Below are positions 1 to 17,349 of a DNA stretch of 36,058 nt, piece by piece. The position numbers and the translations under genes were made by a program. The stretch is from the NCBI GenBank assembly GCA_030550205.1, contig JAUQPS010000007.1, positions 1-36,058 of the forward strand. The letters are read 5' to 3'. Origin of the DNA: a bacterium (GTDB lineage Bacteria > Hydrothermota > Hydrothermia > LBFQ01 > DSFT01). Under the pieces are notes generated by a model. It made no database searches. It had not been told where the DNA came from and worked only from the letters and a program-made list of their open reading frames with translations. Position 1 is the stretch's first letter. Every line of letters starts with the position of its first letter.

Positions 1-1427
1 AAATCCCATGTTCTGCCACCAAATTAATCTTAATAGGTGAAAACCAATTTTCAAGTGTTCCTTTATTCCTACCACTTAGTATAACTACTTCATTTTTTTC
101 ATATTTAACAAGCTATTTAAGTAAATCTAATAAATCAGCATCTGGTTTTGCTCTCATGGGCATTCTGGAAAACGGAACAAGCGTCCCATCATAATCTAAT
201 AATATAAGTCTTCTTTTAGATTGTTTATAATGCTCAATTATTTTTTCTTTCAATTCTGAATTTAGCAATTTAATGGAAAATTTCTCTTGTTCTTCCTTAA
301 TAGAAATTAATTCTCTTATTAACTCATTTCCCCATCTTACGATATCATATTTCCTTAATCTATCTTGCATTATTTTATTTCTTTTAATTTGTTCTTCAAT
401 TAGCAATTTCAGAAATATCATTTGGATTAACTAATGCGGTTTCGCTTAAAATCAAAACCCCTTTACCATCTCTCTTAGATGCAATAAATTCTTTGGAAAT
501 TAAATTCATTCCATCACGCAATGGTGTAACAAGCATTACATCTATACCAGGTGTCCACTCTATATTTCCAAATTCACCATTTATCTTTCCAACATATTCA
601 TCTATTTCACTTTTTGTTTTTTGATAGCGCTCAACCCCAACCCGCCCTGGAACAACTACCATAATTAAAACAACTTTATTAAAATATTGAGGATTATTCC
701 TTAAAAATATCTCATAAGCTTTCAGTCTATTCAATATACCTTTTGTATAATCAAGTCTATCTATTTCCGAGTTAATTCTTGAACTCTCTCAAAAATTTCA
801 TTATTTTCTAATGCAAGATAAAACTTCTGAAAATTTATACCCATTGGAAATGTCCCTACTTTTATAACCCTATCCTCTGTTAAAATTTTACCCATTTCAT
901 TTCTATAACCCAAGAATCTCAAAACTGTTTGAAGAAAATTTTGAGAATATTCATATGTATGGAATCCTATTTTCTCCAAGAACGTGGCAATAATTGAAAT
1001 GTCTCAAAGTGTGGAAATGGAATATGTAAGAAAAAAATTATTTTAGAATTCCTAATATTCTTTCTTAACATCAAAGGCAAAAGCATTAAATGATAATCAT
1101 CTATTCCTGAGCAAAAATCTCATTTACTTCTACATATGCTTTCCAAAATTCTTCATCCCATTCAACATAATTTGTAAATAAATGAAATAACGGCCATACT
1201 ACTTTATTACAAAAACCATAATAGAACTTATCTATAAGTTTTTTGGATAAAAAAACTGGCAAAGAATTATACTCTTTAAAAAGCTTTTTGGATAAAATTT
1301 CCTTTTGTTTATTATTAAAATCACTACTTGGAAATCCAAGACCTCCAACACTTTTTTTAACTATTAAATTACCATCAACTTCTTCTATGGTTATTGGCAA
1401 TCTATTTGATACAATTAACAACCTCAT
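1..1427 (-). pseudogene. otsAB: Broken fused trehalose-6-phosphate synthase/phosphatase (OtsA-OtsB), continues past window start
   Basis: Five fragments in different frames read in order like one bifunctional TPS-TPP enzyme, which makes trehalose 6-phosphate from UDP-glucose and glucose 6-phosphate and then dephosphorylates it. From 1427 downward I see IVSNRLP, SVGGL, PVFLS and WPLFH (to 1101); after a frame change DYHLMLLP and FLHIPFP (about 1095-985); then GFHTYEY and FPMGI (979-761), DRLDYTKG (about 757), VTPLRDGMNL (about 500), and the phosphatase motif DYDGT plus VAEHG (about 200-10). Frame changes fall near 1101, 980, 761, 396 and 113. Blocks normal in the family are missing at or near most breaks, and also in frame, for example between WTP and DVMLVTP (about 20 residues). 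Small deletions rather than single-base errors therefore explain it. The promoter element (1435-1444) is intact. It is divergent from the YeaH gene. Confidence 0.85.
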
Positions 1428-6578: not shown

Positions 6579-8564
6579 TCAATTATTTTTCTTTATCTCT
6601 TGATGAACTTCTTTAAGGGCATTTTCTAAATTTTGTAAGTGTAAAAGGGCTATGTTTAACTTTTCTGGAACTTCTGAAAAATTTACAATTAAATTTTGAA
6701 ACTTACATATTCTATCTTTTGCATTATTTATATTTTCCAAAATGTTTAAAATTTCCCTTTCTGCAATTTCAATCTCACTAATTAACTTCTCTCTCTTTTT
6801 CTTTTCATTTCTAATAATAATTAAGGCAAAAACTACAAGAATAATAAATATGCTTTGGGCTAATAATGTTTCAAGGGTTGGATATATTCCTAAGAAATCA
6901 ATAGGTGGAATGATATTTAAGCTTGTAGTCGGTATTATGTTTGCTTCTTGAAAACTTCTTATAGCCTGACCAGTAAATATAAAGGAAAGTAAATATAGAG
7001 CTGAACCTGTAATAGGAAAAATTAAATTTAAAGGTAATCTCATTTGAAGTTTAATAATTGCATACGCGATCAAAAGAATCAAAATAGAACCTATTATAAA
7101 TCCAAGAAAAATATAACTTATAGATGTTTTTGGAGTATTCATAAGCATGGCTTGATAAAATAGAACAGTTTCAAAAGCTTCTCTATAAACTGCTAAAAAG
7201 CTTAAAAAGAATATAAAAATCAAATTCCCCTTATTTATTGATGTTTTTAATTTCTCCTTAATATACCCTATCCAAACTTTGCTTTCAGCCTTACTTATAA
7301 GCCAATAAGAAACATGAAATAATACAATCGCAGCCAAAATTCCCACAATCCCTTCAATTAGTTCTCTTGATAATGTTGAAATATTTATAATAAAAACCGA
7401 TATAAACCAAGTTAAAAAACCAAGTAAAATTGCACTTATCCAACCAAAATGAACTAAATATATAGCCATTTTATTTTGACTTAAACTTACAACTGCCAAA
7501 ATAATACCAATTAATATCGCTGCCTCTAACCCCTCTCTAAAAATAATCATAAATGAATTAAAAAATGCCCATCCTCTTGAAAATATACCCCCCTCAATTA
7601 TAGTTCTGGCTTTTTCTAAATCTTGTTTTATAGATGAAATTAAATTATCTATTTCTTTTTCTTTATCCTTTTGTTTTAATAATCCCCTCAGTTGTATAAA
7701 TTTTTGTTCTAATTGTGAAGCAAATGAAAAATCCTTTGCAAATAATTTCTTTTCAATAGGTTCAAAATTCACAAAGTATAAATCTAATGATAAAGAATAA
7801 GCCTTTTCATATTCACCCTTATTATATAAACTCTTTATAAGTTCAAGATTAGTTAAAATTGCTCTAAAATTATCTCTTTTATTTACAAAGTTTTCAATAT
7901 TGGTTCTTATATAAGCAATTTCCTCATCACTATAACCCCTTTCCTTTAATTCATAATCTGAAAGCTTTGAAATTAATGCCAAACTAATAGTATCATCCAC
8001 TCTTTTAACCTTTCTATCTCTATGTTTCAAAGATAATACATAAAAAGCAACATTCCATTTATCTTCATCAGATAAATTATTAAATGATGGCATATTTACA
8101 AGCCCTACATTTAAAACTACCCAAATTCTAAAAGCACTTAAATCATCTCTTTCTAAGAAATTTATAGGTTTTGGTTCTAATTTACTACTTGCAGGACCAT
8201 TCCCATCTCCCTTATCTCCATGACATACTGAACAATTATATAAATAAATTTCTCTACCTGCCTTTAATGAAATCTCATTTTTCGGATATATATTAAGGCT
8301 TGGATTATTCAATACAATTTCTCGAATTTTTAATAATAGCTCTTTAACCTCTTTAACATCAGCCTTTTTCTTAATAAGCTCATGTAAAGCTTTTGAATAT
8401 TCTATAATTGAGCTATCGGATAATTCTATAAGATTTTGAGAAAATTCAATCATTTCTTGATATTCATTATTATCTTTAAGAGCATTTTCATAATCAGAAA
8501 TCATGTAATCAACGATATTTAAAACCTTTAAGGGCTCATTTAAAGTTAGTATTAAAATTAGCAT
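6579..8564 (-). CDS. FTR1-family iron permease with N-terminal cytochrome c domain
   Basis: This 661-residue protein would take up iron across the membrane. The first 90 residues have the periplasmic helical region typical of bacterial FTR1 fusions (VDYMISDYENAL). A class I cytochrome c domain follows, with CSVCHG (Cys111, Cys114, His115) and a possible Met ligand in VNMPSF near residue 158. From about residue 335 there are seven or so membrane helices with the FTR1 iron-binding pattern RExxE in REGLE (343-347) and REAFE (461-465), and a further RELIE at 400-404. A coiled tail ends the protein. The heme domain presumably passes electrons during iron transport, as in yeast Fet3-Ftr1; that is inference. 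I chose the ATG at 8564, because the family starts just before this region and an upstream ATG at 8627 would overlap the E1 alpha gene. The signal peptide is unusually short. Confidence 0.85.
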   Translation of the reverse strand: MLILILTLNEPLKVLNIVDYMISDYENALKDNNEYQEMIEFSQNLIELSDSSIIEYSKALHELIKKKADVKEVKELLLKIREIVLNNPSLNIYPKNEISLKAGREIYLYNCSVCHGDKGDGNGPASSKLEPKPINFLERDDLSAFRIWVVLNVGLVNMPSFNNLSDEDKWNVAFYVLSLKHRDRKVKRVDDTISLALISKLSDYELKERGYSDEEIAYIRTNIENFVNKRDNFRAILTNLELIKSLYNKGEYEKAYSLSLDLYFVNFEPIEKKLFAKDFSFASQLEQKFIQLRGLLKQKDKEKEIDNLISSIKQDLEKARTIIEGGIFSRGWAFFNSFMIIFREGLEAAILIGIILAVVSLSQNKMAIYLVHFGWISAILLGFLTWFISVFIINISTLSRELIEGIVGILAAIVLFHVSYWLISKAESKVWIGYIKEKLKTSINKGNLIFIFFLSFLAVYREAFETVLFYQAMLMNTPKTSISYIFLGFIIGSILILLIAYAIIKLQMRLPLNLIFPITGSALYLLSFIFTGQAIRSFQEANIIPTTSLNIIPPIDFLGIYPTLETLLAQSIFIILVVFALIIIRNEKKKREKLISEIEIAEREILNILENINNAKDRICKFQNLIVNFSEVPEKLNIALLHLQNLENALKEVHQEIKKNN

Positions 8565-8607: not shown

Positions 8608-9555
8608 TTAATGCAAATGATTTGCAATAATGTCTTTTAGTTTTGGAATTGGGGTATTTTCAGCTTTTTCAATAGCATTCTCAATTTCTTGATTTATTTT
8701 ATTTTTAAAATCATCTATAATTTCTTCATTTAAAACATTTATTTCTTTTAAGTAATTTTCAAATTTTTTAACAGGGTCAAATAATTCATTCCATAACGTT
8801 ACCGCTTCAATATCCAAATACCTTGAATGATCTTCATCAGTTGTATGAGGTGTTAATCTATATACTATTGCTTCTACAAAGGCAGGTTTTCCTTTTGATT
8901 TTATTTCTTTAATTGTTTTATAAACTTCTAAAATGTTCGTTCCATCTATTCTATAACTATCAATTATATTTGAGAATTTTTTTGCTAAATTTTCAATAGA
9001 GCTTTGAAATCCTATTCCTTCTTTTTTCATTGGAATATCCTTTCTTGAGGGGACACTAATAGCAAGTCCATTATTTTCACATACGAAAATTACATTTACA
9101 TTATAAATAGTAGCTAAATTAAGGGCTTCATAAAATTCTCCTTCACTTGTCCCCCCATCTCCAAAGTTCGTTAAAACCCAATAATTTTCACCACTTAATT
9201 TACCTGCTAATGCCAAACCTACCGCTTGGGGACATTGACTTGAAATTGTTACATAAAAATTAGCAACTCTCAAATTATCTGGAAATTTTTCACCAAGTGG
9301 ATTTCCCTTCCAATATAAAAAAGCGGTATATAAATCTAAACCAAATGTAATTGCAAGAGCAGTTCCTCTATAATATGGTAAAACCCAATCATTCTTATCA
9401 AGAGCTAACGCACAGCCTACTTGAACTGCTTCATGTCCCCTGAAACCTGGATATACCCCAAGTCTTCCTTGCCTTCTTAAAATAAAACATTTTTCATCAA
9501 ATAAACGCGCTCTTAATAAATAGTAATAAAAATTTAAAAGTTGCTCTCTATTGAA
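8608..9555 (-). CDS. 2-oxo acid (pyruvate-type) dehydrogenase E1 alpha subunit without a standard start codon
   Basis: The product resembles the thiamine-diphosphate-dependent E1 alpha subunit. Seen in order are RRQGRLGVYPGFRGHEAVQ, the thiamine diphosphate motif GDGGTSEG ending in ENN about 30 residues later, and YRLTPHTT. The open frame covers the whole protein from residue LLNFYYYLL onward, but it contains no ATG, GTG or TTG before a TTG at 9273, which lies deep inside the conserved domain. A good Shine-Dalgarno site, AGGAGGG (9562-9568), sits 6 bases before the codon at 9555-9553, and that codon is TTC. A TTG there would give the expected N-terminus, so I mark the gene from 9555. Its start may have been lost by one substitution, or initiation is unusual. 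No E1 beta, E2 or E3 gene is nearby. Confidence 0.7.
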   Translation of the reverse strand, partial: FNREQLLNFYYYLLRARLFDEKCFILRRQGRLGVYPGFRGHEAVQVGCALALDKNDWVLPYYRGTALAITFGLDLYTAFLYWKGNPLGEKFPDNLRVANFYVTISSQCPQAVGLALAGKLSGENYWVLTNFGDGGTSEGEFYEALNLATIYNVNVIFVCENNGLAISVPSRKDIPMKKEGIGFQSSIENLAKKFSNIIDSYRIDGTNILEVYKTIKEIKSKGKPAFVEAIVYRLTPHTTDEDHSRYLDIEAVTLWNELFDPVKKFENYLKEINVLNEEIIDDFKNKINQEIENAIEKAENTPIPKLKDIIANHLH

Positions 9556-10381
9556 CTTTTACCCTCCTGCTATAAACTTTAAATACCGCTTGAATTGGAA
9601 ACATCCCAACCTGAAGATTCGCAATAGTAGAATCAAATCTATACATATTCATTATTCCAAGGTATGCTTTTAGATAGGTAGTATCAAAACTTGTTATAAA
9701 TGCAGTGTCCTTTTTAATTGTAGTATCATTACAAAATGGAGTTTGAGGTTTTGTTTGATAGCGATATTTAATTTTTGAAAATACCTTGGAAAATAATTTA
9801 AATGAAGTATCTGGACTTGCTTCAATAACAACTTTCTTAGAGCTATCAATTTTTAAGCTATCAAGATATATCCACAATGTGCAAGAGCCAAGTTGCTGAG
9901 CTGAAAGTCTTAAAGTATCTCCTATATATTTACTTTGAGATTCAATAGGTATCCAGTTATCATTTAATGAAAGAGGTGCTTTGAATACTTTATAACCCAT
10001 ACTTACTTGTGATGTGCTATCCAAAAAATTAACTGTCCTTATTGTATCAATAACAAAAGGATTAACAACATAAAGTGTATCATATATTTTTGATTGGGAT
10101 GTATAGAATGAGTCATAGTATTCAACATTCAAGTTTCCAAATGTATCTTTTATAACCCTTAAAAATGTATCTTGATAAACCATCGTAGTATCAGTAAGAT
10201 TTGGGATTATAAATCTGGAAGTATCAATAGCATAATATTTATGCGTTTTACCTACATCATAGCCCCAATATCTAATTACATCGTAATTTGAGAAGGTGGG
10301 GTTTTGGGGAGATGTTTGGTCAGATTTTTTGGAACAAGCAAGGAAGATAAAAATTATAAAAAATAAAGAAAAATAACGCAT
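9548..10381 (-). CDS. Putative lipoprotein of unknown function
   Basis: This 277-residue protein has a short basic N-terminus, a hydrophobic stretch and the lipobox LACSKK with Cys at residue 16, so it should be exported and lipid-anchored. The mature part is rich in Thr, Ser, Asp and Tyr, with recurring short patterns such as DTxF and YDTLYVV. It is probably all beta. I do not recognise a family. It starts right after a promoter element and is the first gene of a unit with E1 alpha and FTR1. The E1 alpha ribosome site lies within its last codons. Confidence 0.65.
   Translation of the reverse strand: MRYFSLFFIIFIFLACSKKSDQTSPQNPTFSNYDVIRYWGYDVGKTHKYYAIDTSRFIIPNLTDTTMVYQDTFLRVIKDTFGNLNVEYYDSFYTSQSKIYDTLYVVNPFVIDTIRTVNFLDSTSQVSMGYKVFKAPLSLNDNWIPIESQSKYIGDTLRLSAQQLGSCTLWIYLDSLKIDSSKKVVIEASPDTSFKLFSKVFSKIKYRYQTKPQTPFCNDTTIKKDTAFITSFDTTYLKAYLGIMNMYRFDSTIANLQVGMFPIQAVFKVYSRRVKVQ
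9562..9568 (-). promoter_or_regulatory. Shine-Dalgarno site for E1 alpha
   Basis: AGGAGGG on the minus strand, inside the last codons of the lipoprotein gene. It points to a start near 9555-9550, where no standard start codon exists. Confidence 0.6.
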
Positions 10382-10385
10382 ATTA

Positions 10386-10395
10386 AAATTTTAAA
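10386..10395 (-). promoter_or_regulatory. Leaderless-type promoter element for the lipoprotein gene
   Basis: GCTTTAAAATTT on the minus strand ends 4 bases before the ATG at 10381, in the 17-base gap after the tldD stop. Confidence 0.5.
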
Positions 10396-10398
10396 GCC

Positions 10399-16886: not shown

Positions 16887-16958
16887 GCGGGCGTAGCTCA
16901 GTGGTAGAGCACCTGCTTGCCATGCAGGGGGTCGCCGGTTCAAATCCGGTCGCCCGCT
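16887..16958 (+). tRNA. tRNA-Gly (anticodon GCC)
   Basis: A full cloverleaf can be drawn: acceptor GCGGGCG/CGCCCGC, D arm GCTC/GAGC with loop AGTGGTA, anticodon stem CCTGC/GCAGG with loop TTGCCAT (anticodon GCC at 16919-16921), variable GGGTC, and T arm GCCGG/CCGGT with loop TTCAAAT. The discriminator base is T, and CCA is not encoded. Only four bases separate it from the rplS ATG. Its GC-rich stems stand out against the AT-rich surroundings, as expected in a thermophile. Confidence 0.98.
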
Positions 16959-16962
16959 CTTT

Positions 16963-17349
16963 ATGAACAAAGCGGAAATTATAAATGAGATAGAAAAAAG
17001 ATATTTAAAGGAAGTTCCTGAGCTTAAACCTGGATATATTGTAAGAGTTCATGTAAGAGTTACAGAATCAAGATTTAATCCAAAGACAAGAAAATGGGAA
17101 GAAAAAACAAGAATCCAACCATATGAAGGTATGATAATTAGAATGAGAGGAAAGGGAATTACAAAAACTATTACTGTTAGAAAAGTTAGTCAAGGTATTG
17201 GTGTTGAAAGAATTTTTCCAATATATTCACCTGTTATTGAAAAAATTGAAGTAATTAAAAAGCATAAACCAAAGCGTGCTGTATTAACATTTGTTAGAAA
17301 TATGTCAGATAGAGAAATAAGAAGGAGATTTAAAGAAATAAAAGAATGA
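16963..17349 (+). CDS. rplS: Ribosomal protein L19 (bL19)
   Basis: This 128-residue basic protein is bL19 of the large ribosomal subunit, located at the interface with the small subunit. The family patterns are clear: the PGYIVRVHVRV block, IQPYEGMIIRMRGKGI, TITVRKVSQGIGVERIFPIYSP and a Lys-rich C-terminal VRRAK-like segment (KPKRAVLTFVRN). The N- and C-termini are slightly extended relative to the usual 115 residues. The ATG is 4 bases after the tRNA-Gly gene and no Shine-Dalgarno site fits. The message is therefore probably made from the tRNA promoter and freed by tRNA 3' processing. The common partners trmD, rimM and rpsP are not here. Confidence 0.96.
   Translation: MNKAEIINEIEKRYLKEVPELKPGYIVRVHVRVTESRFNPKTRKWEEKTRIQPYEGMIIRMRGKGITKTITVRKVSQGIGVERIFPIYSPVIEKIEVIKKHKPKRAVLTFVRNMSDREIRRRFKEIKE

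Follow-up and report, generated by a model that had tools for sequence, protein, structure and literature searches.

The closest proven precedent for the gene described here is sigR of Streptomyces, which starts at GTC after AGGAGGTG, a codon present in 32 of 34 species; sigR is repressed by IF3 and its partner gene starts with ATG (PMC5472188). The infC gene of Escherichia coli starts at ATT and is also repressed by IF3 (PMC5472188). Overlapping gene pairs offer a further point of comparison: across 1,695 species, overlaps of 4, 1 and 8 bases are the commonest classes and are read as marks of termination–reinitiation (PMC10666635). During reinitiation in E. coli, non-AUG codons are usable with an initiator tRNA altered to pair with them, and reinitiation is damped by excess IF3 if the ribosome site is absent (PMC2268962). 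With a complete E. coli system in vitro, UUC forms no initiation complex with the initiator tRNA, but when IF3 is left out, 70S complexes assemble on UUC at nearly the rate seen with AUG (PMC7907450). In the full texts searched, which lack most subscription papers, mention of UUC (TTC) as a start or initiation codon was found only in this in vitro study, where UUC is a wrong-codon control (PMC7907450).

Here we describe a gene for an E1 alpha-like protein on a 36,058-nucleotide stretch of bacterial DNA (contig JAUQPS010000007.1; hereafter, the window), which, from comparison with a second genome of the genus, very probably has a conserved non-canonical start.

An intact E1 alpha frame lacking a canonical start

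The initial annotation had described a conserved E1 alpha reading in one frame, with no ATG, GTG or TTG before 9273 and with AGGAGGG (9568–9562) six bases ahead of a TTC codon (9555–9553). We confirmed all three observations on the minus-strand frame, which ends at TAA (8610–8608; Table 1) and matches Pfam E1_dh, NCBIfam TIGR03181 and Protein Data Bank entry 1w85 over nearly its full length. The 316-residue translation from AAG matched E1_dh at residues 17–307 (E = 7.7e-55; 186 bits against a cut-off of 22; profile positions 7–299 of 300) and TIGR03181, the pyruvate dehydrogenase (PDH) E1 alpha equivalog, at residues 2–313 (E = 4e-85). Because the latter score, 285.7 bits, does not reach the curated cut-off of 411.35, we class the predicted protein only as E1 alpha-like, without assigning a substrate. 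Its alignment to 1w85 chain A (PDH E1 alpha) spans residues 4 to 312, and a GDG...ENN stretch sits at the place of the cofactor motif in PDH-type E1 alpha; the window protein is without some 40 residues that come before the aligned region in 1w85.

Following an in-frame TAA (9561–9559), the frame reads AAG TTC AAT AGA GAG CAA, base 9553 being the C of the TTC codon. The TTG at 9273 lies 94 codons past TTC. Open reading frames (ORFs) with a canonical start would encode 221 residues in the window and 281 in the ortholog described below, compared with 315 and 314 for the full frames.

Table 1 Features of the E1 alpha locus and of two further genes from the start survey.
Feature	Position	Strand	Remarks
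Upstream lipoprotein gene, first of the module	9548..10381	-	277 aa; lipobox LACS by eye
GCTTTAAAATTTT, -10-like motif directly 5' of the lipoprotein ATG	10385..10397	-	Also in G001
E1 alpha (PDH-type, TPP-binding)	8608..9555	-	TTC to TAA, 315 residues; domain, structure and ortholog matches
TTC, inferred initiation codon	9553..9555	-	Same in G001; modal ribosome-site spacing
AGGAGGG, Shine–Dalgarno	9562..9568	-	Within the lipoprotein gene end; G001 has AAGGAG in the same register
TTCAATAG, 8-base overlap of the inferred start with the lipoprotein stop codon	9548..9555	-	Identical in G001
In-frame TAA closing the E1 alpha frame upstream	9559..9561	-	Window only, absent in G001
TTG, first canonical in-frame start	9271..9273	-	A start here would trim the conserved protein by 94 residues
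Third gene, cytochrome c domain and FTR1 iron permease	6579..8564	-	Conserved ATG; 67% aa identity to G001
Family 2 glycosyltransferase	L109:17814-18530 (G000:C137), G001:C11:137709		ATA in both, directly behind tRNA-Val
Split PIN_5 gene	L124:3002-3442 (G000), G001:C22:7721-8155	-	A9 run

The startless frame is conserved in a second genome

We compared two genomes of the genus, the one holding the window (G000) and that of WOR-3 bacterium SKYB27 (G001), so that conservation here means a single comparison. The G001 ortholog of E1 alpha, at 80% protein identity, has a start region that reads ACAAGGAGAATTAAAGTTCAATAGAGAAGAA and contains the block AAAGTTCAATAGAGA in common with the window. No ATG, GTG or TTG stands at the conserved start in either genome: the first canonical codon of the G001 frame is a GTG at codon 34, and the frame stays open for about nine codons further upstream than that of the window, again without ATG, GTG or TTG.

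At the DNA level the two genes are 79% identical (21% of bases differ), with dN 0.14 and dS 1.0 over 313 codons (dN/dS 0.14). Selection extends to the first codons. Over codons 1–36, nearly all of which precede the first canonical start of G001, dN is 0.12 and dS 1.9, and of the codons that differ within codons 1–34, 14 do so synonymously and 6 non-synonymously, a synonymous excess with a binomial p of 3e-5 against an assumed null of 75% non-synonymous change. That a startless frame has dN far below dS in these codons shows that its N-terminus is translated and under purifying selection in both lineages.

This comparison bears directly on the three ways in which the missing start had been explained, namely a start just lost, initiation on a rare codon, or a wrong consensus base at 9553. 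A sister strain with TTG or ATG at this point would have indicated a sequence error or an ordinary gene; G001 has neither, carrying the same startless sequence after a divergence of dS ~1, which refutes both the recent loss and the base error and leaves rare-codon initiation as the sole option, for which the spacing statistics given below point to TTC. An error in the sequence, a very recent loss or pseudogene status would be in keeping with the draft state of the genome (86% completeness, 6.7% contamination) and with the trehalose synthase gene, likewise in the window, which is truly broken; against this, the startless sequence is repeated in a second species at the DNA identity and dN/dS given above, with the frame undamaged, so that only an error common to both assemblies could rescue such an explanation, and we regard it as exceedingly improbable. 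Ordinary decay and sequence error are excluded as causes.

Two features of the start region call for caution, as both also serve the overlapping lipoprotein gene. The C of TTC is also fixed by the lipoprotein Gln codon CAA, and because that codon forces the C, the identity of TTC in G001 is not independent evidence. The AGG AGG or AGG AGA of the ribosome site also codes for a conserved Arg-Arg in the lipoprotein frame; AGG AGR makes up 21/147 and 29/173 of the Arg-Arg pairs in the two genomes.

No further E1 alpha above 36% identity was found in 60 relatives plus 40 genomes of the class, and a scan of GTDB contigs with E1 alpha returned G001 and one match of 27% from Pelagibacteraceae. Both sister-genus genomes lack this type of E1 alpha, their best match being at 35%.

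Ribosome-site spacing and gene overlap point to TTC

For reference, 353 likely start sites were collected from ortholog pairs in stretches of G000 (557 kb, including the window) and G001 (772 kb), and 65 of these were led by a ribosome site (a match of at least 5 bases, with spacings of 2–12 counted). The modal spacing between ribosome site and start was 7 bases, in 22 of the 65. In each genome E1 alpha has a ribosome site of six matching bases in one and the same register, at 7 bases from TTC, 4 from AAG and 10 from AAT. Only 0.14% (G000) and 0.16% (G001) of coding positions have a match of at least six bases placed so, which speaks against chance. Taking TTC as the start, the co-directional lipoprotein and E1 alpha genes overlap by a short stretch of 8 bases, stop with start, in both genomes. 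We therefore place the start at TTC, where modal spacing and the 8-base overlap class, two separate expectations, coincide, and UUC is the likely start codon.

The neighbouring codons AAG (9558), AAT (9552) and AGA (9549), all conserved in G001 and one of them, AAG, a single base away from ATG, could in principle receive a non-canonical initiation event directed by the same ribosome site. Their spacings of 4 (1 of 65), 10 (6 of 65) and 13 (outside the counted range) compare poorly with the mode, however, and their overlaps of 11, 5 and 2 bases with the upstream stop are not among the enriched classes (PMC10666635), so that we think initiation there rather unlikely.

It is quite unlikely that translation begins at an internal codon, for which the TTG at 9273, the GTG at codon 34 of G001 and an ATT/ATA at codon 25 are candidates, or on a leaderless transcript, of a kind with starts that are frequent in the genus. 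An internal start conflicts with the strong purifying selection on codons 1–36 and with their alignment to the solved E1 alpha; as to a leaderless transcript, the scores of the upstream motif at TTC, AAT and AGA ranged from the 0.5th to the 74th percentile of those at random positions, and a matrix of 132 leaderless-type starts gave no in-frame support for a leaderless promoter at the E1 alpha start. An AAGUU/AACUU hairpin around the start, present in both species, was weak and no better than shuffles (z of 0.15 and -0.47 over 120 nt, and of 0.41 and -0.84 over 66 nt).

A separate start would be dispensable if ribosomes underwent a programmed +1 frameshift where the lipoprotein gene ends and so made a lipoprotein–E1 alpha fusion. 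The overlap between lipoprotein stop and E1 alpha frame is identical in arrangement in both genomes, and AAA to AAG would allow a +1 slip of the lysine tRNA; yet the upstream protein bears a lipoprotein signal, by which the fused enzyme would be exported, and the ribosome site lies at initiation spacing, unlike the shift site of prfB, which has its ribosome site at close spacing. We consider such a fusion very unlikely.

A three-gene module with unlinked E1 beta-like genes

The lipoprotein gene, E1 alpha and the cytochrome c–FTR1 gene form a module common to both genomes, with differing flanking genes. The lipoprotein, in which no Pfam domain was matched, has 58% amino acid identity between G000 and G001 (dN 0.33, dS 2.3). 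In both species the lipoprotein ATG comes directly after the GCTTTAAAATTTT motif, and the simplest reading therefore makes E1 alpha the second gene of the lipoprotein transcript.

The remark that no E1 beta partner lies nearby holds for the window, in which none was found, the three Transket_pyr matches of the genome all being on other contigs; as a sign of decay it does not stand, as each genome has two E1 beta-like genes, unlinked to E1 alpha on other contigs and starting with ATG, so that the partner expected of the family is available elsewhere. A second, longer E1 alpha is likewise unlinked in each genome. The pair of sister-genus genomes gave, taken together, one E1 beta-sized match, and the others were longer and transketolase-sized.

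Elsewhere in the window (113–1427, minus strand), trehalose-6-phosphate synthase/phosphatase is present as at least three pieces matching successive parts of PRK14501, and, judged by these matches, is a broken gene, unlike the intact E1 alpha.

Start codons elsewhere in the two genomes

The laxity of starts in the genus was surveyed in 276 reciprocal-best pairs, reduced to 237 non-overlapping pairs and then to 229 after 8 had been dropped with the frame running off the end of a stretch. Flagged pairs were judged by eye with the aid of a list of 61 pairs in which the two genomes share no canonical start close to the conserved boundary; in most of these, each genome has its own canonical start and the two lie only a few codons from one another. 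From a table of homologs the plus-strand rows were used, 9 of its 18 rows (minus-strand loci) being left out. Judged in this way, E1 alpha was the sole pair of the 229 with neither NTG nor ATN at the start. Three other pairs lacking ATG, GTG and TTG in both genomes use ATA, ATT or CTG: a family 2 glycosyltransferase, apparently with an ATA start, a lytic transglycosylase-like gene starting at ATT behind a -10-like motif, and an O-antigen ligase-like gene with CTG in both genomes, directly behind tRNA-His. Pairs encoding a HAD hydrolase and a signal peptidase have CTG in one genome and ATG or TTG in the other. These other non-canonical codons retain two bases of AUG and lie on leaderless-type or tRNA-released messages; E1 alpha alone among the non-canonical-start pairs combines a ribosome site with the lack of any nearby NTG or ATN codon.

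One further pair flagged as startless was rejected. This is the PIN_5/RNA ligase partner gene, which in both genomes changes frame at a stretch of nine A and so falls into two parts; the run reads as a conserved slippage site.

An IF3 domain was present in 7 of the 7 genomes searched, and the initiator tRNAs of G000 and G001 retain GGG/CCC in the anticodon stem. A relaxed initiation machinery is not supported by these normal-looking components, and a global loss of initiation stringency is not indicated by them. The IF3-domain ORF of G001 (G001:C55:7610-7867, L156) has a TTG start behind AAGGAGG and so differs from E. coli infC, whose start is of the AUU type.

At 132 of the 353 start sites there was no ribosome site but a TAAAATT-like element, mostly 12–15 bases upstream, of which GCTTTAAAATTTT is a common form; by this measure, leaderless-type transcription is widespread in G000 and G001. 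ORFs of at least 100 aa with ATG, GTG or TTG at -2 to +7 of a tRNA end followed 16 of 35 tRNAs in G000 and 12 of 36 in G001, with a further 4 and 5, respectively, having only CTG, ATA, ATT or ATC. In other genera, such starts followed 3 of 18 (G002) and 0 of 21 (G018) tRNAs. Within the window, tRNA-Gly (16887–16963) is followed by the ATG of the L19 gene. Processing of the tRNAs would release leaderless messages at their 3' ends, as in the tRNA punctuation of mitochondria, where messages are released by tRNA processing.

Discussion

We judge it moderately probable that E1 alpha is a working gene translated from a non-canonical start, most likely UUC (9555–9553), after the upstream gene ends. 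Ribosomes would translate the lipoprotein gene and terminate at UAG (9550–9548); the post-termination ribosome, held by AGGAGG pairing, would shift back a few bases and restart on UUC with the initiator tRNA, so that the first residue would be formyl-methionine. We infer such a restart after termination, as opposed to fresh 30S initiation. The reinitiation route may lessen IF3 control and so let UUC serve, and it is attractive because UUC is rejected in the complete in vitro system and accepted without IF3. More tentatively, we suggest as one possibility that this is a maintained natural UUC start, in which a post-termination ribosome, anchored by a strong Shine–Dalgarno sequence, escapes IF3 checking and restarts on a codon with a single base of AUG; the lineage has AUA, AUU and CUG starts as well, on leaderless and tRNA-released messages. 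By analogy with sigR, a weak start would keep E1 alpha at a low level, the E1 beta genes having ATG.

Gene callers assume ATG, GTG or TTG, and genes like E1 alpha are consequently shortened or missed. If UUC is used, reinitiation would succeed where fresh initiation refuses the codon, and the locus would be a natural test case for the avoidance of IF3 proofreading.

Against the known systems, the likeness is greatest to sigR: in both genes the codon is not NTG, has C as its last base and follows an AGGAGG site of extended form, and both have genus-wide conservation, a misannotation to a canonical codon, and a partner gene with a canonical start (PMC5472188). They differ in that the codon is UUC in E1 alpha and GUC in sigR, that E1 alpha is second in an overlapping pair, that E1 alpha is an enzyme subunit and sigR a sigma factor, and that the sigR case is experimentally proven. 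With infC, E1 alpha shares a conserved non-canonical start on a functional gene (PMC5472188); AUU, however, has two bases in common with AUG and UUC only one, and there is no autoregulatory logic for E1 alpha. The 8-base start/stop overlap is that of termination–reinitiation pairs, although known pairs of the 8-base class have NTG at the start position (PMC10666635). UUC is thus a new codon for an already known phenomenon, the conserved non-canonical start, and not a new category.
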